Source: Gammaproteobacteria bacterium
Lineage (GTDB): Bacteria; Pseudomonadota; Gammaproteobacteria; Steroidobacterales; Woeseiaceae
Direction of reading: 5' to 3'
DNA: 55,270 bases
Assembly: GCA_029861535.1 (NCBI GenBank)
Contig: JAOTZC010000014.1
Span: 1 to 55,270, forward strand
Below the pieces are notes generated by a model, which had not been told where the DNA came from, did no database searches, and saw only the letters and a list, made by a program, of their open reading frames with translations. Positions 3,537-48,403 of this stretch are shown piece by piece (positions within the stretch are counted from its first letter, which is position 1; each line of letters begins with the position of its first letter). Both the position numbers and the translations under genes were made by a program.

Positions 3537-4844
3537 ATGAACAAGCAAACTTCGGACGAAGAAAATCTCGACCTGAATATCGTCGCGCAACAGCAATTCG
3601 ACCGCGCACTAACCTGGATTGACGACGTCAAAGCCGGCCTCATCGCCTATTTCGTCAACCCGAAGCGGACCGTGCACGTTCGCTTTTCGATCACGATGGA
3701 CGACGAGTCAGTGCAAACGTTTCATGGCTTTCGGGTGTTGCATAATCGTGCGCGAGGGCCGGGTAAAGGAGGTATTCGTTACCACCCTAACGTGACAGAA
3801 AGCGAGGTGTCGGCATTAGCCGCACTTATGACATGGAAGACTGCAATCATCGACGTACCGTTCGGTGGCGCCAAAGGTGGCGTGGTCTGCAACCCGAAAG
3901 AGCTTAGCCGTGCAGAGTTGCGGCGTATCACACGGCGCTTCGTCATCGAACTCGGTGACGCTATCGGACCGCACACGGACATTCCGGCGCCGGATATGTA
4001 TACCGACGAACAGACGATGGCATGGATCTACGACACCTTCGACATCTTGCACCCTGGACAAAACAATCGCGCCGTCGTTACCGGCAAACCGCTGGAACTA
4101 GGTGGCTCAGTCGGACGCGATGCTGCAACAGGGCGCGGCTGCCTCAATGCGACGCAGCGGCTACTCGAGCACGGTATCGTTGAAAACTTGAGCGACGTCG
4201 CCGGCGCCCGCGTTGCGATTCAAGGCGTCGGCAACGTTGGCAGTACTTCCATGTCTTTATTCCACGAAGCCGGCGCGCGCATCGTGGCCATAACGGATTC
4301 CCACGGCGGGGTCGCGAACGAGCAGGGATTGCAACCGAATACAGTGATCGCGCATAAGAAAGAATGTGGCAGCGTTGTCGGCTTACCGGAAACCGTAACG
4401 ATTACCAATGATGACCTGCTGGCGTTCGATTGCGACATCCTGATACCGGCGGCGCTCGAATGCCAAATACATGCCGGAAACGCGGCCGATGTCAAAGCAA
4501 CGCTTATTGTCGAAGCGGCGAATGGGCCGCTAACGCCCGAAGCAGACGACATTTTGCAGAAAAGGAACGTTACCGTATTGCCGGACATCGTCGCGAACGC
4601 CGGCGGTGTTGCCGTTAGTTACTTCGAGTGGGTGCAGAATTTGGAAAATCAACAGTGGCAGCTCGAAAAGGTCGAGAATCGGCTACAACTCAGAATGAAC
4701 GCAGCGGTTGACTCGCTGGTCGCTCAATGGCGGCTATTGCAACAGAAAAAGGATCGCGGCGAGCCAACGCTTCGCAATGCGGCGCTGGTTATCGCGATTC
4801 GCCGCCTATCCGACGTTATTTTGCAACGCGACATTTGGATGTAG
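3537..4844 (+). CDS. gdhA: Glutamate dehydrogenase (Glu/Leu/Phe/Val dehydrogenase family)
   Basis: Reversible NAD(P)-dependent oxidative deamination of glutamate to 2-oxoglutarate and ammonia, in the cytoplasm. The 435 residues match the small hexameric family (about 420). Visible motifs are the substrate-lysine segment PFGGAKGGV, the catalytic-aspartate segment IPAPDMYTDE, and the Rossmann motif QGVGNVGS. Three possible starts exist: GTG 3513, GTG 3525 and ATG 3537. The ATG is chosen because GAGA precedes it at suitable spacing and family proteins start near here. It sits divergent to putA, so proline to glutamate to 2-oxoglutarate can be handled by one locus. Cofactor preference cannot be read with confidence. 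Its last 39 bases overlap the 3' end of the convergent ligase gene. Confidence 0.93.
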   Translation: MNKQTSDEENLDLNIVAQQQFDRALTWIDDVKAGLIAYFVNPKRTVHVRFSITMDDESVQTFHGFRVLHNRARGPGKGGIRYHPNVTESEVSALAALMTWKTAIIDVPFGGAKGGVVCNPKELSRAELRRITRRFVIELGDAIGPHTDIPAPDMYTDEQTMAWIYDTFDILHPGQNNRAVVTGKPLELGGSVGRDAATGRGCLNATQRLLEHGIVENLSDVAGARVAIQGVGNVGSTSMSLFHEAGARIVAITDSHGGVANEQGLQPNTVIAHKKECGSVVGLPETVTITNDDLLAFDCDILIPAALECQIHAGNAADVKATLIVEAANGPLTPEADDILQKRNVTVLPDIVANAGGVAVSYFEWVQNLENQQWQLEKVENRLQLRMNAAVDSLVAQWRLLQQKKDRGEPTLRNAALVIAIRRLSDVILQRDIWM

Positions 4845-5969
4845 TTTGTCCATTTCCGCGCAGCCATCCAGCAACTCGCATTGTAGCTCCGAAACCACGT
4901 TGGGCAAAAGCTTGGCCCGGTCAAACGCCTCACGCTGTCGCTGATAGTCGGGCTTTTGCGTCAGCAGCTCACTGGCCAGCGCGAGGCCGGTCGTCTCGCC
5001 GTATTGCGCGGCAGTCGCGCGGCTGAAATCGATCAAATCGGCAGCGAGATCGCGAAGTGGACGGTGCTCACCGCTCGCGTTAACGATGAACTCTGCGTCG
5101 AGCCCACTGTGTGCCGCGCGATAGCGATTCTGTTTCTCTGCCCACCGCGGCAAATTCAACGGTAATAGCGTAGCGGCTTCGGCAACTGATGTATTGGCGA
5201 GACGGAGCACTAGTGAGCGCACGAACGCAACCAACGCAAGCAAGCGCTTGCTATCAGACACGGAATCCATGGTACGCAACTCCAGAGTGCCAAAGTCTGG
5301 GTGTGGCCGTATGTCCCAATGAATATCCTTGAAGGTCTCAATCATCCCGCACCGCTCAGCGGCGCCGATGAAGCGCTTGAATTGCTGCCAGTCGGCAAAA
5401 CGCTCGGGCAAACCGTAGTTGGGCGCCGCCGCAAGTATGCGGTGTCGATAGGCCGCATGGCCCGTTTCGTGGCCACGCCAAAATGGCGAATTTGCGGACA
5501 TCGCGATGAAGACTGGAACCGCAGGAATCAACAGCGACATTGCATGCATGGCCTCATCGCCGGAGCTCATGCCGACGTGCACGTGCGTGCTGAACGTAAT
5601 CTGCGTGTGCGAAAGGATGCCGGTGTTAGCGGCGATACGCTTGTAACGAGGTAACGGCGTAATCAGGGCCAGCCTGCGGCAGAACGGATGCGTGCCGGCT
5701 CCGCATAGTCCCATCTCCAGTTCTTTGCAACGCTGCAGTGCTTTCGTCAGCGTGCCACTGATGTCGGCGATCGCTTCAGCGCTGTCGTTGCAGACTCGCG
5801 TCGTCAATTCCACACAAGACTGAATGTACTCGGGCTTGACCCTTTCAGCGCGCGGGAAAAACTCCATCAACGGCATGATGCCGTCAACCAGATCGAGCGT
5901 TATCGGATCCAGCAGTTGCAGTTCCCACTCGACGCCAACTGTCGGCCCAGCTGATGGCTCAAAGTCCAT
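4806..5969 (-). CDS. ybdK: Carboxylate-amine ligase, YbdK / glutamate-cysteine ligase type 2 family
   Basis: ATP-dependent ligase of the GCS2 family; E. coli YbdK has weak gamma-glutamyl-cysteine ligase activity, and the physiological substrates of most members are unknown. The 387 residues are normal length. Motifs seen: N-terminal GVEWELQLLD (family GVExEL), the THVHVGM metal/ATP segment, NSPFWRGHETG, and FGTLELRTMDS. Its ATG overlaps the upstream amidohydrolase stop by 11 bases, so the two are probably translationally coupled and made as a pair. That pairing suggests amide bonds are made and broken on related substrates, which is inference. The 3' end overlaps gdhA convergently by 39 bases. 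Confidence 0.88.
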   Translation of the reverse strand: MDFEPSAGPTVGVEWELQLLDPITLDLVDGIMPLMEFFPRAERVKPEYIQSCVELTTRVCNDSAEAIADISGTLTKALQRCKELEMGLCGAGTHPFCRRLALITPLPRYKRIAANTGILSHTQITFSTHVHVGMSSGDEAMHAMSLLIPAVPVFIAMSANSPFWRGHETGHAAYRHRILAAAPNYGLPERFADWQQFKRFIGAAERCGMIETFKDIHWDIRPHPDFGTLELRTMDSVSDSKRLLALVAFVRSLVLRLANTSVAEAATLLPLNLPRWAEKQNRYRAAHSGLDAEFIVNASGEHRPLRDLAADLIDFSRATAAQYGETTGLALASELLTQKPDYQRQREAFDRAKLLPNVVSELQCELLDGCAEMDKLHPNVALQNNVG

Positions 5970-41612: not shown

Positions 41613-43781
41613 CTACAACTCTTGCACTCGCTGCATCAGCGCCCGATATTCTTCGGTCGCATGTAGCGATTCCATTGCCGGATCTTGATTCGCAAATAAG
41701 ACGTTACGCCAACCATTGCTTACCGCATCTTGCAGGTGCCCCATTGCGTCGGGCGCCGCACCACCTGCTGCGGCTAGCGCGGCCAATGCATAGTTCACAT
41801 CACCGGTACCCCAGCCCTGCGCTTGTACTCTCTGCGCGGTAACCCGACCATTTTCCAATGCGGCGATAATAGTCTCTTGATCATTGTCCTCGAGCACGCG
41901 GGCCCTCGTCAGCAGCGCGAGATAGTGAATGGATTGTGGGTGCGGATCGAGAGAACTGGGACTCGGGATCGCCCGATCGAGCAGCTCAGACGCGGTGGCC
42001 GAATCACCACTGGATAAGCTTCCTATAGCGGCCCAAATCAGGCGTTCGAGACGCATTTTGGAATCGGCCAATCCCGAATTGTCGATGACCAGCTGCGCGC
42101 GCTGCGTTGTCATCGCCTCCAACTCTTCATTACGACCAGCGACTAAAAGAAATCGCAATGTCACTTGTAATACTGACTCATTTTTCGGAGCAACCCTGCG
42201 TGCCTGGTTGAGGTTGGCCTCGGCATCATCCAAGCGTCCGAGTTGGATGTTAGCGTCGACCAGCTGCGACAGCGCAATTGGATTGTCCGGCGCCAATAAT
42301 TGCGCTTGGCGGGCGAACTTCAGAGATCGTTCGCCTCGACCTGCTAGGGCCGCGACCCTCGACATGGCAAGAGTAACCGACAGGCTCTCGGGGTTTTCCG
42401 CGAGCAAAGATTCGAGTTGTTCAAATGCACGATCGAAACGCCCTTGCAGGCCCGTCAGTATCGACTGTTCGGCTATGATTGTTGAATTTAGCGGGTCGAG
42501 CGCCAGCGCCTGCGTATACGCTCGGGTAGCCTCTTCCAAGAAACCCTGATCGCGTAAAAGATTCGCGCGCTGCAGATAGGCGTCACCGTAGTTTGGATCG
42601 AGTTCGATGGCTTTCGCAAATTGCGACGCGGCCGCACGTTCTTGTCCTGCACCGAGCACGCACAGGCCTAAAGAGGTCTGCGCCTCTGGGAGCTCACTAT
42701 TCAACAGCAGTGCACTACTGATCGCTTCGTGTGCTTGTTGAGTGGCTTCGAACAAGGACAGATTTCCGATTCGTCTTTTGCCAATCCATGCGTCAGCAAG
42801 CCCTGTATATGCCTGTGCATAATCGGGATCCAGATCTATTGCTCGATCGAAATGTTCGATCGCTTGATCGATCGCAGCCACCGTTTGTTTCTGCAAAGAA
42901 TGACGACCTTGTAAATACGCTTTGTACGCCTCGACGTCGGCGGTGCCCGCCTGAATAAGGTCGTTATCACGTCCCGAAAATTCCAATTCCAGTTCGCGCA
43001 CAATTGCTGCGGCGATTGCGTCCTGCACAGCGAATACGTTTTTTAGCTCGTAGTCGAACGTGTCCGACCAGAGCTGAAATCCGCTTTCGGTTTCGATCAG
43101 CTGGGCCGTAATGCGCACATGATCGTCATCTTGATCCATGCGAACACTGCCGTCTAATACCGTCGATACGTTTAGCATTTCACCAATATTGCGGACGTCT
43201 ACGTCATCTCGATACGCAAAAGAAGACGCCCTTGCGGCCACGCGCAGACCCTCGACGCCCGAAAGTCCGCTGAGAATTTCCTCGGCTACGCCGTCGCTGA
43301 AATAGACGCTATTTGATTGTTCATTTGTCGCAATATTCTTGAATGGCAGAACCGCAACTGATTTGCCTCGCGAAAATTTGGCTTCTTCGCCGGCCTGCGA
43401 ATATAGACGATCTGACAGATAGACGACCGCCACGCCCAGCACTAAGACAAGGAACCAACTGGAAATTTGCGAAAATCGGCTAAGGTCATTGGTCGACTTC
43501 GGTGCTGGTGTGCCGAGAACGACACCTTTCGACGTCACGTCGAATATCCAGGCCAGGACTGCAATTAGCGGAAATCCCGCGAGAGCAACTATTATCAGCG
43601 TCGTCAACACTGTCTCCGGGATGCCCAAGGCCGGGAAAACTACGTCAGCGGCCTCCACCGCAATCCACGCCACCACGGCATAGGTCGCCACGGCGCGAAA
43701 CACGCGTCGATGTTGCAGCTCTTTGATCAGGCGGGAAATCACTTGCTTGCTCGCCGACTCATGGGTGATTGTGTGGTGCAT
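41613..43781 (-). CDS. Membrane protein with TolB-like domain and TPR repeats
   Basis: 722 residues from the ATG at 43781, chosen because GAGTGAG precedes it and the cytoplasmic segment RLIKELQHRRVFRAVATY begins soon after. Earlier in-frame ATGs at 43793 and 43862 are possible. Three or so membrane helices (AVVAWIAVEAADVVF, LIIVALAGFPLIAVLAWIF, WFLVLVLGVAVVYL) are followed by a TolB/FlgO-type domain (VAVLPFKNI, YFSDGVAEEILSGLS, VSTVLDGSVRM, QLWSDTFD) and at least eight TPR-type helical repeats (IDLDPDYAQAYTGLADAW, IELDPNYGDAYLQRANLL). Such proteins are often fused to adenylate cyclase or winged-helix domains; none is present here. Role unknown, probably protein-protein interaction at the membrane. 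Confidence 0.85.
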   Translation of the reverse strand: MHHTITHESASKQVISRLIKELQHRRVFRAVATYAVVAWIAVEAADVVFPALGIPETVLTTLIIVALAGFPLIAVLAWIFDVTSKGVVLGTPAPKSTNDLSRFSQISSWFLVLVLGVAVVYLSDRLYSQAGEEAKFSRGKSVAVLPFKNIATNEQSNSVYFSDGVAEEILSGLSGVEGLRVAARASSFAYRDDVDVRNIGEMLNVSTVLDGSVRMDQDDDHVRITAQLIETESGFQLWSDTFDYELKNVFAVQDAIAAAIVRELELEFSGRDNDLIQAGTADVEAYKAYLQGRHSLQKQTVAAIDQAIEHFDRAIDLDPDYAQAYTGLADAWIGKRRIGNLSLFEATQQAHEAISSALLLNSELPEAQTSLGLCVLGAGQERAAASQFAKAIELDPNYGDAYLQRANLLRDQGFLEEATRAYTQALALDPLNSTIIAEQSILTGLQGRFDRAFEQLESLLAENPESLSVTLAMSRVAALAGRGERSLKFARQAQLLAPDNPIALSQLVDANIQLGRLDDAEANLNQARRVAPKNESVLQVTLRFLLVAGRNEELEAMTTQRAQLVIDNSGLADSKMRLERLIWAAIGSLSSGDSATASELLDRAIPSPSSLDPHPQSIHYLALLTRARVLEDNDQETIIAALENGRVTAQRVQAQGWGTGDVNYALAALAAAGGAAPDAMGHLQDAVSNGWRNVLFANQDPAMESLHATEEYRALMQRVQEL

Positions 43782-43950
43782 GCTCACTCGCATACAGACC
43801 CTTATGGTCGCAGAGAAATTACACGCTGTCGCGTCCGTGGCCATCCTTCGTGGATCGCCCACCCAGCAGGTCTGGGTGTCGACGGAGGAAGAAGTGAGTT
43901 CGCCCGACCGGTGGCCTCCGTTACGCGTACAACAATCGGATTAACGACCA

Positions 43951-44082
43951 GTGGATTTTCAGCCCGACGAGCCTATATCATCAGCAAGGTTGATCAACAG
44001 CTTGCGGGAGCTTGCATTGCGCGAAGAACAGAACACGGAGCCGCGTGAGCAGTTCGACAAGATCGAATCCGAGTTGACGTGA
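43951..44082 (+). CDS. Possible 43-residue protein upstream of the DUF1538 pair
   Basis: A short frame with GTG start at 43951 whose stop overlaps the GTG start of the next gene by four bases (GTGA). A stop at 43942 excludes any earlier start. The product is acidic, helical and soluble ([20 protein letters not shown], then [17 protein letters not shown]). Codon choice resembles the neighbours. The tight overlap is the main argument that it is translated. It could be a small regulatory partner of the transporter or a leader frame that couples translation. No family recognised. Confidence 0.5.
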
Positions 44083-44813
44083 GAGAGGCGCTCATCGCGA
44101 TTGGTCGAGACGCGCTGGGCAGTCTGCGCGACCTATTACCCATCGTCATTGTCATCAGCGTATTTCAGATTTTTGTCATTCAGCAGCCCGCGGCCGACCT
44201 GCTGCCGCTAGCGTATGGTGCGCTATTGGTTGTCGCCGGGCTTACTCTCTTTATCTATGGCTTGCGGATGGCACTGTATCCGGTCGGCGAGACCTTGGCG
44301 TACTCACTGGCAAAGAAAGGTAGCGTCTTTTGGTTGATGATTTTTGCGTTTCTGCTGGGATTCGGTACTACCATTATGGAACCGGCCTTGATTGCGGTCG
44401 CGGCCGAAGCCGCGGATGTGGCGGCGCTGGAAGGCGTAATTGAGCAGTCGGAAAACGCAAAGTGGCGGTACGCGCTCGGACTAAGACTGACGGTTGGTGT
44501 TGCCGTCGGAGTTGCGCTCGTCCTTGGCGTAACGCGGATCCTGCTCAATTGGTCTCTGCCCGGAATGATCATCGGAGGCTATATCGTGGTCGTGTTAATA
44601 ACGACCGTCGCACCTAGGGAAATAATCGGGATCGCATACGACTCCGGCGGAGTTACAACGTCCACCGTTACGGTGCCACTCGTGACAGCGCTTGGCGTTG
44701 GACTCGCGAGTTCGATTCGAGATAGAAACCCGATGCTTGACGGATTCGGCCTTATCGCATTCGCGTCATTGTTGCCGATTCTTTTCGTACTGGTATTTGG
44801 AATGTTGGTGTAA
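44079..44813 (+). CDS. DUF1538 membrane protein, first copy
   Basis: 244 residues with about seven hydrophobic helices. The GTG at 44079 is forced: an in-frame stop lies at 44046 and no other start codon falls between. Core motif near residues 185-205, [15 protein letters not shown], followed by [15 protein letters not shown]; another conserved-looking block is [17 protein letters not shown]. The same blocks occur in the next gene. DUF1538 has no established function; the helix count and glycine-rich motif suggest a transporter or channel. Its stop overlaps the second copy's ATG by one base (TAATG). Confidence 0.82.
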
Positions 44814-45583
44814 TGGAAATACTTGCAGCCAGCTTTCGACTTGTAATTGATAGCGGTCTCGACGTGCTGCCCATCGCCGTTTTTCTGTTCGTGTTTCAAC
44901 GTATCGTAATCGGCAAACCGATGCCGGGTGGCCGGCGCATTGTCGTCGGCTTCGTTTTCGTCGTTGTTGGGCTCGGCTGCTTTTTGGTTGGCCTTGAGCA
45001 GGCCTTGTTTCCGCTCGGCCGCTTGATGGCGGAACAGCTTACGGATCCAGCATTCCTTGCTACATCGTTATTCGCGGCGGATTTACCCAGTTGGGCGCAA
45101 TACTACTGGGTCTATCTGTTCGGGCTGGCAATCGGTATAAGCACGCCGCTAGCCGAACCGGCATTGATCGCGGTTGCGTTAAAGGCCAATGAGGTGTCCG
45201 GCGGCGCCATTAGCGTCTGGGGATTGCGCGTGGCTGTTGCGATCGGTGTCGGCGTCGGTGTGAGTCTTGGCTGCATTCGCATCGTGACGGGATTTCCGCT
45301 GCATTACTTTATTGCGGCTGGCTATGTTGTTGTCGTCCTTCAGACCCTGGTTTCACCCAGGTTGATCGTGCCATTGGCGTATGATTCCGGTGGTGTCACA
45401 ACATCGACGGTAACGGTACCGCTGGTAACTGCTCTTGGACTGGGGCTGAGTGCGGCCGTACCTGGCCGGTCTTCGCTTTTGGACGGCTTCGGACTGGTCG
45501 CATTTGCGAGCTTGTTCCCAATCATTGCAGTCCTCGCGTACGGCCAGGTTTCGTTAATCAGGGGGCGTCGCACCGCACCCTGA
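44813..45583 (+). CDS. DUF1538 membrane protein, second copy
   Basis: 256 residues, about seven helices, clearly related to the first copy: [15 protein letters not shown] and LDGFGLVAFASLFPI are nearly identical, and [19 protein letters not shown] matches [15 protein letters not shown]. The pair are therefore paralogous halves, probably forming a heterodimer; in some genomes DUF1538 proteins are about twice this long, which would correspond to a fusion. The loop after helix three is longer here (LTDPAFLATSLFAADLP). Thirty-three bases separate it from the PII-like gene. Confidence 0.82.
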   Translation: MEILAASFRLVIDSGLDVLPIAVFLFVFQRIVIGKPMPGGRRIVVGFVFVVVGLGCFLVGLEQALFPLGRLMAEQLTDPAFLATSLFAADLPSWAQYYWVYLFGLAIGISTPLAEPALIAVALKANEVSGGAISVWGLRVAVAIGVGVGVSLGCIRIVTGFPLHYFIAAGYVVVVLQTLVSPRLIVPLAYDSGGVTTSTVTVPLVTALGLGLSAAVPGRSSLLDGFGLVAFASLFPIIAVLAYGQVSLIRGRRTAP

Positions 45584-45616
45584 CAATGTTTGTCATAACT
45601 GCAAAGGACTACAACC

Positions 45617-45967
45617 ATGCATTTCAAACTTATTATTGCGTTTGTTGAGGACAGTAAAACTGATGCCATAGTTGAGGCCGCCCGCGCGACCGGCGCGACC
45701 GGCTGTACTGTCATCAATCAAGCCCGCGGCGAAGGAATCAAAGCGCGGAAAACGTTTCTTGGTCTGTCGCTAACCTCTCAACGCGACGTTGTGCTATTGC
45801 TCGTCGAGCAGCACCTGTCGCGGCATATTTTGGAACACATTGGCGATGTCGGTGAGTTCGATGCAAAACCTGGAACGGGAATCGCTATACAAATTGATGT
45901 GGAGGACGCCGTCGGCATCATGCACCAGGCCGAGGAACTAGGCGACATTGTGGAGGAAAACCTATGA
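45617..45967 (+). CDS. PII-like signalling protein with altered T-loop
   Basis: 116 residues with the ferredoxin-like fold of the GlnB superfamily: FKLIIAFVEDSKTDAIVEAAR as strand and helix one, GATGCTVINQARGEG before the T-loop, and GTGIAIQIDVEDAVGI as the C-terminal signature. The T-loop is short (IKARKTFLGLS) and has no tyrosine, so uridylylation as in GlnB/GlnK is unlikely. PII-like proteins bind nucleotides and often regulate an adjacent transporter, as SbtB does for SbtA; that role is inferred. AAAGGA precedes the ATG. The CBS gene overlaps its stop by four bases. Confidence 0.82.
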   Translation: MHFKLIIAFVEDSKTDAIVEAARATGATGCTVINQARGEGIKARKTFLGLSLTSQRDVVLLLVEQHLSRHILEHIGDVGEFDAKPGTGIAIQIDVEDAVGIMHQAEELGDIVEENL

Positions 45968-46368
45968 GTAGCCAAGAATGGGTGCGCGTGCGCGACGTGA
46001 TGCGACACGAAGTCACCGAAGTTGATGGCAAGATGGACGTGCTATCCGCGCTAAAGATTATGAAAAAGGTTGGCGCGACGAGTTTAATCGTCAAGCGCCG
46101 TGATGAACGTGATGAGCACGGTATGTTGTTGTTTTCGGATGTCGCAAAAAGAGTCATCGGTAAAGACCGCGCACCGGAACGCGTTAACGTGCATGAAATT
46201 ATGGCCAAACCTGTTGTAACGGTCCGCCCGGATATGAATATTCGCTACTGCGCGCGGCTTTTCGAAATTTTCGGAATTAGTCATGCGCCGGTCGTCGAAA
46301 ACGAGAAGATTATCGGCATCGTCAGCTATTATTTGCTCGTTTTGGGAAGTTTGCCGAATCTGGATTAA
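45964..46368 (+). CDS. CBS-domain pair protein
   Basis: 134 residues, little more than two CBS motifs: VRVRDVMRHEVTEVDGKMDVLSAL with SLIVKRRDE, and VNVHEIMAKPVVTVRPDMNIRYC with HAPVVENEKIIGIVSYYLL. CBS pairs bind adenine nucleotides and sense energy state. Translationally coupled to the PII-like gene (ATGA), so it is the second regulator of the DUF1538 operon. Its last 47 bases overlap the convergent radical-SAM gene. Confidence 0.9.
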   Translation: MSSQEWVRVRDVMRHEVTEVDGKMDVLSALKIMKKVGATSLIVKRRDERDEHGMLLFSDVAKRVIGKDRAPERVNVHEIMAKPVVTVRPDMNIRYCARLFEIFGISHAPVVENEKIIGIVSYYLLVLGSLPNLD

Positions 46369-47485
46369 TTTCCTGTTCGTATATCGGCCGGCGGCTCGCG
46401 CCCCACTGTCCCGGCATGTTTTCGAAGATGCCCGCAACAGCTGTGCCGCAGTTGCCACACCTGCCACGCTCATTTTCGAGTCTCAAGTTCCATGTCGAGA
46501 GCTCGTACCAGTCGCGCCCGATCAGAGTGTCACCGCAGTTGTGACAATACGTGCTAGAACCCTTGAGGTCATGAACATTGCCTGTGTAGACATATCGAAG
46601 CCCGTTCCTTAGTGCGATATCGCGGGACTGACTCAGTGTTTGGAGTGGCGTACTCGGGGTATCCATCATCTTCCAGTCGGGATGGAAAGCCGTCAAATGC
46701 AATGGCACGTCAGATCCCAGTTGCTCCATGATCCAGTTCGTCATCTCGTCAATTTCGGTCGCAGAATCGTTCTCGCCGGGAATCAGCAAATCGGTAAGTT
46801 CGAACCAGACATCGGTTTCGTGCTTAAGATACTTGATGGTCTCAAGAACCGGCTCCAGGTGGCCACCGCACACCTTCCAATAAAAACGTTCAGTGAACGC
46901 TTTCAGATCGACATTGGCGGCGTCCATATGTCGGAAAAACTCTTCGCACGGTTCCTTAGTGATATATCCGGCCGTAACCGCAACCGTTTTGATACCTCGT
47001 TCGCGGCAAGCGGCGGCCACGTCAACCGCGTATTCCAGAAAAATCACGGGGTCGTTGTAGGTAAAGGCAACGCTGCGGCTGCCGGTCTTGACGGCAGCTT
47101 CGGCAATTGCCTCCGGCGAGGCGCTGGCTTGCAGTTTGTCGAGCTCACGTGACTTCGAGATATCCCAGTTCTGGCAGAATTTGCAGGCAAGATTGCAACC
47201 GGCCGTGCCAAACGACAGCACGGGCGTGCCCGGCAAAAAATGGTTGAGCGGTTTTTTCTCAATTGGATCGATGCAAAAGCCGCTGGACCGACCGTAGGTT
47301 GTCAGTACGATTTCGTCATTCTGGCGCGCGCGGACGAAACAGAGTCCGCGCTGCCCCTCGCGCAGCTTGCAATAGCGCGGGCAGACGTCGCATTGCAGAC
47401 GACCGTCGTCGAGCGCGTGCCAGTAACGCCCTGAAACACCGACAATTTCGGTCCGTTCCTTGGTTTTTGTGCTTGGCTGGCTCAT
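46322..47485 (-). CDS. amrS: AmmeMemoRadiSam-system radical SAM enzyme
   Basis: 387 residues. Radical-SAM cluster motif CNLACKFC (Cys97, Cys101, Cys104) after TAGC, an N-terminal Cys cluster (CDVCPRYC with Cys49), NYLKHETDVWFELTDLLIPG-type barrel strands, and a C-terminal zinc-ribbon pair (YCHNCGD, RCGNCG). This is the AmrS family that co-occurs with Memo and AMMECR1 proteins; the reaction is unknown. It is divergent from the Memo gene across 117 bases, and no AMMECR1 gene is in the window. Its 3' end overlaps the CBS gene by 47 bases. Confidence 0.93.
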   Translation of the reverse strand: MSQPSTKTKERTEIVGVSGRYWHALDDGRLQCDVCPRYCKLREGQRGLCFVRARQNDEIVLTTYGRSSGFCIDPIEKKPLNHFLPGTPVLSFGTAGCNLACKFCQNWDISKSRELDKLQASASPEAIAEAAVKTGSRSVAFTYNDPVIFLEYAVDVAAACRERGIKTVAVTAGYITKEPCEEFFRHMDAANVDLKAFTERFYWKVCGGHLEPVLETIKYLKHETDVWFELTDLLIPGENDSATEIDEMTNWIMEQLGSDVPLHLTAFHPDWKMMDTPSTPLQTLSQSRDIALRNGLRYVYTGNVHDLKGSSTYCHNCGDTLIGRDWYELSTWNLRLENERGRCGNCGTAVAGIFENMPGQWGASRRPIYEQEINPDSANFPKRANNS

Positions 47486-47602: not shown

Positions 47603-48403
47603 ATGACCGTGATCCGGGAACCGGCGGTTGCCGGCCAATTTTACCCCGGCACTGCCAGCGAATTGAGTACGACGATTCGGGTATATCTCGACGAGGCTGA
47701 GGTTCAGCAGGGCCCGGCCCCGAAAGCGCTGATCGTACCGCATGCCGGCTACGTCTATTCCGGGCCCGTGGCCGCCAGCGCGTACGCCAGGCTGCGACCT
47801 TATCGTCAACACTACACGCGCGTGATTCTGCTGGGGCCCTGCCACCGGGTGGCCGTACAGGGCCTGGCATTGAGCGGGGCCGACGTATTTCGGACGCCGT
47901 TAGGAGATGTGCCGTTAGACAAGGACGCAATCGCCAATCTGGAATTGCCGGACGTAAAGGTTTTCGACGCCACTCATCAGTTCGAGCACAGCCTCGAGGT
48001 CCATCTGCCTTTCCTGCAAAGCGTCATCGAGTCATTTTCACTCGTACCGCTCGTTGTCGGTCACGTGCCCCCGGAGACCGTGGCCCGGGTTATCGATGCC
48101 TTGTGGGGCGGGCCGGAAACGCTAATCGTCATAAGCTCCGACCTAAGCCATTACCTGACTTACGACGAAGCGCGCGCCAGCGATAAGACGACCTGTGAGG
48201 CGATCGAAAACCTGCAGGCGCAAAGTATCGATCATGATAAGGCCTGCGGCGCCACACTTATCGGCGGTTTGCTTATTGCGACAAAACGCCGCGGCATGAG
48301 AGTGATAACGCTCGATCTTCGAAACTCGGGCGATACGGCCGGTGACAAAAGCCATGTCGTCGGCTACGGTTCATGGATGTTCCTAGAGAATGATCGAATA
48401 TGA
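47603..48403 (+). CDS. amrB: AmmeMemoRadiSam-system protein B (Memo family)
   Basis: 266 residues, normal for the MEMO1 family, which has a fold related to non-heme iron dioxygenases. Signature segments: REPAVAGQFYPG at the N-terminus, IVPHAGYVYSGPVAASAY, LLGPCHRVAV, HSLEVHLPFLQ, and VISSDLSHYLTYDEA. His-containing residues for metal binding (PHAGY, HSLEVH) are present. Cytoplasmic. It shares a divergent promoter region with amrS and overlaps pcm by four bases. The chemical role of the set is not established. Confidence 0.93.
   Translation: MTVIREPAVAGQFYPGTASELSTTIRVYLDEAEVQQGPAPKALIVPHAGYVYSGPVAASAYARLRPYRQHYTRVILLGPCHRVAVQGLALSGADVFRTPLGDVPLDKDAIANLELPDVKVFDATHQFEHSLEVHLPFLQSVIESFSLVPLVVGHVPPETVARVIDALWGGPETLIVISSDLSHYLTYDEARASDKTTCEAIENLQAQSIDHDKACGATLIGGLLIATKRRGMRVITLDLRNSGDTAGDKSHVVGYGSWMFLENDRI

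Follow-up and report, generated by a model that had tools for sequence, protein, structure and literature searches.

What does a pair of DUF1538 membrane proteins do when the genes for a PII-like protein and a two-CBS-domain protein follow directly behind it? This arrangement occurs in the window, a stretch of 55,270 nucleotides that makes up one entire contig (JAOTZC010000014.1) of a Gammaproteobacteria bacterium of the Woeseiaceae (assembly GCA_029861535.1; 2.57 Mb, 76% complete, 71 contigs). The original prediction, made from the DNA letters, had described five tightly packed genes for an uncharacterised transporter of unknown substrate with built-in PII-like and CBS regulators. Our analysis points to a more specific answer: the cluster probably encodes a UmpAB-type antiporter with a PII-like sensor of its own that gates it from the cytoplasm, and with the CBS protein as a second, less constant input. 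The arrangement suggests that a pump responding to the cell's condition has been overlooked.

The system comprises four genes on the + strand. The umpA-like gene (44079..44813, 244 amino acids) starts with GTG, the sole start codon ahead of its conserved domain, and overlaps the umpB-like gene (44813..45583, 256 amino acids, ATG start) by 1 base. Their products match the Pfam family DUF1538 (PF07556) at 214.9 and 216.2 bits, respectively (cut-off 22.6), share 43% identity and are the only DUF1538 matches in the source assembly. The next gene (45617..45967, 116 amino acids, ATG start) encodes a member of the P-II superfamily (PF00543, 35.1 bits, cut-off 25), whose nearest relatives carry the source names Woeseiaceae and Gammaproteobacteria. 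The last gene (45964..46368, 134 amino acids, ATG start) encodes two CBS stretches in tandem (Pfam CBS, 61.3 bits, cut-off 24), an arrangement of the Bateman type. These scores bear out the predicted layout of two paralogous DUF1538 proteins, a PII-like protein and a two-CBS protein, and the coordinates, lengths and spacing given for the five frames (three overlaps, of 4, 1 and 4 bases, and a single 33-base gap) are exact. The five-gene cluster shrinks to four genes, as its tiny leading frame falls away (see below). Chance does not explain the layout: genes in this order are found in other phyla too.

The DUF1538 pair UmpAB of Halomonas zhaodongensis was characterised in 2017 as a heterodimeric Na+(Li+,K+)/H+ antiporter (PMC5484666). 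According to the available text of that paper, umpA and umpB jointly, and neither gene singly, restored growth on 0.2 M NaCl plates to an E. coli host without its main antiporters, the two proteins co-precipitated, and exchange of Na+, Li+ and K+ was optimal at pH 9.0. The clone in that study held four ORFs, with umpA as ORF3 and umpB as ORF4. The window proteins find their best NCBIfam matches in the UmpA (NF041627) and UmpB (NF041628) models, and the description 'uncharacterised, substrate unknown' is thus out of date. The pair resembles UmpAB in its paired, overlapping, paralogous genes, in the roughly seven hydrophobic stretches of each protein (averages for the UmpA and UmpB families over 150 separate A/B pairs, obtained with no dedicated transmembrane predictor) and in the conserved acidic residues of both DUF1538 halves, which the window proteins keep. 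It is unlike UmpAB in scoring under the equivalog cut-offs and in its neighbours: the available text of PMC5484666 describes neither a PII nor a CBS protein and lacks the words 'PII', 'P-II' and 'CBS'. As a filter for equivalog copies, the UmpA cut-off was passed by none of the 274 class-wide genomes and by none of five Halomonas genomes. A Halomonas assembly (L304) encodes an UmpB that scores 490.8 bits against the UmpB model, whose cut-off is 500, and is 56% identical to the window UmpB. Its umpB is followed by a PII gene whose product is 58% identical to the window PII; its umpA frame is broken, and no CBS gene was found in the stretch examined. Judging by these sequence features, we describe the window pair as likely to work like UmpAB and do not file it under the equivalog; antiport would be its expected activity in this organism.

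PII-like genes accompany DUF1538 well beyond this assembly. DUF1538 occurs in 81 of the 196 genomes surveyed from the order, and in 126 of 398 from the phylum. Among the 60 best-scoring loci from other genomes (L003-L062, up to 1.5 kb on each side), 59 contain a PII-like gene and 51 a CBS gene. With rare exceptions, A, B and PII follow one another in this order on a single strand. To offset this choice of top scorers, 69 further loci were added with low scorers included (L063-L131; a few places appear twice), and 60 of them contain PII; six of the nine misses are contig ends or fragments (L076, L104, L111, L123, L128 and L129). A survey of named loci took the best 80 of at least 592 that were confirmed and recovered PII in 75; four of the five loci without it (L151, L189, L195 and L203) break off within 100 bases after their last DUF1538. 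PII-bearing named hosts belong to Campylobacterota, Pseudomonadota, Thermodesulfobacteriota and Planctomycetota, with one Actinomycetota assembly. DUF1538 matches were also present in 91 of 274 genomes sampled across the class; of the 30 best loci, 29 show PII within 1.5 kb, and in the remaining one it lies roughly 1.5 kb past umpB. Rarity of such neighbours had been named beforehand as the outcome that would speak against regulator linkage, and the counts run the other way. The possibility that the cluster is peculiar to this genome was rejected, as the arrangement recurs in foreign, named and class-wide loci.

Plasmids carry the association as well. Five of seven plasmid records with a DUF1538 match were opened. 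On plasmids of Paraclostridium, Peptoclostridium and Vescimonas (Bacillota), a DUF1538 gene overlaps a P-II-annotated gene (222-224 amino acids), an unannotated record likewise has two PII domains by profile, and a Methylocystis plasmid has two DUF1538 genes and PII. A tblastn search of the window PII against the plasmid records gave no match.

The linkage also holds in the opposite direction. We ran a profile of the window's PII clade (A3, 39 rows) against 192 genomes from the order, which listed 101 matches. For 85 of them, a listed DUF1538 match is no more than 844 bases away (median 71), and six more, at 38 to 56 bits, adjoin additional DUF1538 copies in the DNA that was fetched. Every one of the 91 matches that reach 38 bits in these genomes is thus linked to DUF1538. 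The remaining ten do not exceed 30.7 bits; six of them were fetched and have no DUF1538 nearby, and their sequences are of the ordinary GlnB/GlnK kind. Read by genome, 80 of 81 DUF1538-bearing genomes have an A3 match, and the 81st (G008) has a frame with two PII domains that was detected by a looser profile and by Pfam. Eight genomes have an A3 match without DUF1538, in each case a weak one.

Natural fusions join the two partners physically. In the fetched loci, 16 open reading frames encode DUF1538, DUF1538 and PII as a single chain, and 10 encode PII-PII. The triple fusions (638-677 codons) come from Campylobacterota, including Sulfurimonas, Sulfuricurvum, Arcobacter, Aliarcobacter, Poseidonibacter ostreae (L149), Thiovulum and others, and from one further assembly labelled Kangiella. 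Pfam P-II was found in the three of the 16 that were checked, at 28.6, 28.7 and 32.5 bits (cut-off 25). A quick tree was built from 111 of 256 non-redundant A/B pairs, with 145 thinned out and long branches flagged. It places at least four changes between separate and fused A/B forms, so fusion or separation of A and B has happened on more than one occasion. Of the 16 PII-fusion rows, the two retained in the tree group together with support 99, and PII has been joined to the end of UmpB at least once. Fusions of CBS to PII or DUF1538 were considered as further proof and dropped: none occurs in one open reading frame among the fetched loci, and no CBS gene was seen in the 16 triple-fusion loci.

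Other variants were noted at these loci. An additional PII-like gene lies upstream of fused DUF1538 in L091, L170, L190 and L191, so that PII stands on both sides. In L108, L115, L117, L120, L212, L213 and L216, the PII-like frame beside fused DUF1538 has two successive PII domains or surplus residues. A 759-amino-acid database protein (P0122), which may be an artefact of its 2.5-kb contig, reads as three successive DUF1538 domains.

Several findings weigh against a PII-gated UmpAB-type antiporter. The window proteins stay below the NCBI equivalog cut-offs, with UmpA at 333.1 bits against 490 and UmpB at 302.1 against 500. A PII-like gene is truly missing from L066, from L083 (the same place as L015) and from L105, where 1.2 kb was read, as it is within 5 kb of the DUF1538 pair in L210. 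The genome that holds L210 (G855, outside the 192-genome sample) also holds a strong PII match of 128 bits with no DUF1538 within 1.5 kb (L307), together with a second PII-profile match that is linked to another, fused DUF1538 gene. The named-locus survey leans to Campylobacterota and Gammaproteobacteria. Within it, the CBS gene is present in 57 of the 80 loci and missing in 23, so we regard the CBS protein as accessory; of the predicted built-in regulators, PII proved the more constant partner and CBS the less constant one. Finally, exchange needs neither PII nor CBS: umpAB alone worked in E. coli (PMC5484666, available text).

The shortfall on the equivalog models leaves room for a transporter that moves some other substrate, such as bicarbonate or an organic acid, with Halomonas antiport as a side or branch activity and PII still gating. 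Two further points favour this possibility. Among PII-like partners of secondary transporters, SbtB is the best studied, and it controls a bicarbonate transporter (PMC10710835, available text); a single DUF1538 pair has been assayed, as far as the searched literature shows. Against another substrate stand the 56% identity of the window UmpB to a Halomonas UmpB near the characterised one, the acidic residues conserved in both halves and the exchange of Na+, Li+ and K+ by the assayed pair (PMC5484666, available text). In addition, DUF1538 is among the ion-transport genes of a growth-pH model, according to the available part of its report (PMC13255231). We consider a different substrate unlikely, although it is the strongest of the alternatives to a PII-gated cation/proton antiporter.

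A second alternative is that PII and CBS are mere neighbours that control expression or another protein and make no contact with the antiporter. The activity of UmpAB in E. coli without them would fit, as would the genome in which PII and the DUF1538 pair are unlinked (L307 and L210) and a locus, L102, in which the PII and CBS genes lie on the opposite strand. This explanation is improbable in view of the 16 open frames that fuse PII to the membrane protein, the two-way link between the PII clade and DUF1538 and a gene order that is kept across phyla.

Canonical GlnB/GlnK proteins are marked by a T-loop Tyr51 motif and a GKIGDGK-type B-loop. Neither motif occurs in any of 250 non-redundant PII sequences from the DUF1538 loci, compared with 7 of 7 and 6 of 7 ordinary PII proteins, respectively. 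A broad T-F-F-G-L pattern shows the reverse distribution (189 of 250 against 0 of 7). That the window PII is an ordinary nitrogen sensor (GlnB/GlnK, binding ATP and 2-oxoglutarate and uridylylated) tying the pump to nitrogen status is thus very improbable: the databases' name 'P-II family nitrogen regulator' and the Pfam P-II match above cut-off speak for it, but both motifs are absent and no NCBIfam PII model matches. We rejected this identity on the motifs. The nearest solved chains found with the PII profile are all other PII proteins (9p1x, E = 3e-8; 4ozj, 4e-5; 2cz4, 7.5e-5), and no entry named SbtB is among the 18 solved chains at E 0.01 or better. The T-loop is conserved but lacks the canonical modification site, as would suit a dedicated binding loop with UmpAB as its putative partner.

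Charge distribution offers a view of where such binding could take place. Segments rich in lysine and arginine (K+R) tend to be cytoplasmic, following the positive-inside rule. Over the 150 A/B pairs, mean K+R counts for UmpA are 2.1 at the N-terminus, 0.17 in the first loop, 1.94 in the second loop and 0.13 in the tail; those for UmpB are 0.67, 3.09, 1.53 and 4.18, respectively. This bias, read with the positive-inside rule, places UmpA N-in/C-out and UmpB N-out/C-in, and UmpA and UmpB would thus form an inverted pair with the UmpB tail, the site of PII fusion, on the cytoplasmic face. The second loop of UmpB is longer, and its charge does not help this assignment. The authors of the Halomonas study suspected the hydrophilic tail of UmpB to be important (PMC5484666, available text).

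We propose a model in which the trimer, its docking, its ligand, the sign of control and the role of the CBS protein are what we infer. PII proteins are trimers, and the PII-like protein is expected to be one too. UmpA and UmpB would form a 7+7-helix heterodimer of oppositely oriented halves that exchanges Na+ (and Li+ and K+) for H+, as Halomonas UmpAB does. The PII-like trimer would dock on the cytoplasmic side near the UmpB tail, probably via its conserved T-loop. By binding a small ligand, for which an adenine nucleotide is the likeliest candidate, PII would alter antiporter activity in one direction or the other. The CBS protein, whose best solved match is CBS-CP12 (E = 2.5e-19), may provide a second nucleotide-sensing part that acts on PII or on the antiporter. 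As a result, the rate of cation/proton antiport would track the energy or metabolic state of the cell.

We lean, by a modest margin over even, toward a wider generalisation: that DUF1538 antiporters are nucleotide-gated as a rule, almost all through a dedicated PII-like part (adjacent, doubled or fused) and some through another nucleotide-binding partner. The relevant cases are copies without adjacent PII. L083 (5518-7659, - strand, G113) encodes a fused DUF1538-DUF1538 protein with a C-terminal Cytidylate_kin2 match (41.3 bits, cut-off 28), a P-loop kinase-like domain. Its tree neighbour with support 100 is L203, from a Verrucomicrobiia assembly whose genome has no match to the PII profile; the second DUF1538 domain of L203 is incomplete near the contig end, with the tail out of view. 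In L066, the frame directly downstream is convergent and encodes a two-Usp protein (4013-5011, - strand, 127.5 bits, G021). The next frame in L105 resembles what we take to be a YchF-type GTPase, and no neighbour of a nucleotide-binding type was recognised after the pair in L210. From these single cases, we conjecture that kinase-like, Usp or GTPase-like proteins replace PII. Beyond the two-Usp gene of L066 lies a frame that, by eye, resembles a Na+/Ca2+ exchanger.

The tiny protein at the head of the predicted cluster corresponds to a real 43-codon frame (43951..44082, + strand, GTG start) that is unlikely to be a gene. Neither Pfam nor NCBIfam matches it, and a phmmer search over the open reading frames of the first 62 loci returned only the window's own copies. 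No counterpart was found upstream of umpA in 25 relatives, where the sole tblastn hit had an E value of 3.8. In view of this lack of conservation, we rejected it as a system component. Directly downstream of the cluster lies an AmmeMemoRadiSam gene pair on opposite strands, comprising the radical SAM enzyme (46322-47485, - strand, 643 bits) and protein B/Memo (47603-48403, + strand, 266 bits; both NCBIfam). Upstream and divergent from the cluster, a 749-amino-acid protein (41613-43862, - strand) contains TPR repeats and matches CadC-like families more weakly.

Most of what is known about PII proteins concerns the sensing of nitrogen and carbon and the control of a small number of transporters and enzymes. 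If the proposed gating is correct, PII signalling extends to salt and pH homeostasis, the DUF1538 antiporter gains a missing regulatory part, and many genes named 'P-II family nitrogen regulator' need re-reading. Monovalent cation/proton exchange would then follow the cell's energy state through a PII mechanism that works on an inverted heterodimer. Because single-chain fusions exist in nature, this question can be tested directly. The UmpAB antiporter, PII-gated transporters and a PII-family gene beside a metal/proton antiporter were already known; the two-way link between a PII clade and DUF1538 and the natural fusions are new. Our literature search, which covered few subscription journals and no preprints, found nothing linking DUF1538 or UmpAB to PII or CBS.

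Three known systems invite comparison, each as described in the available text of its report. In SbtA-SbtB and AmtB-GlnK, a PII-family trimer controls a membrane transporter encoded alongside it (PMC10710835), as we expect here for a PII-like protein whose trimeric state is itself an expectation. Those transporters belong to other families and act as trimers, whereas UmpAB is reported to be a heterodimer (PMC5484666); PII gating of UmpAB would therefore test the suggestion that the transporters targeted by PII are ones that can act as trimers and, if true, run counter to it. PII-NG, encoded beside CzcABC metal/proton antiporters, is likewise a non-canonical PII whose gene adjoins a cation/proton antiporter (PMC7726332), but its partner is an RND metal efflux pump, and the window PII adjoins DUF1538 and CBS genes, not czcABC. 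Borrelia BB0017, a YitT/DUF2179 protein with a C-terminal PII-like domain, places a membrane domain ahead of a PII-like domain, as the 16 fusions do; it differs in having four predicted helices and no DUF1538, and its PII likeness comes from structure modelling (PMC6516651).

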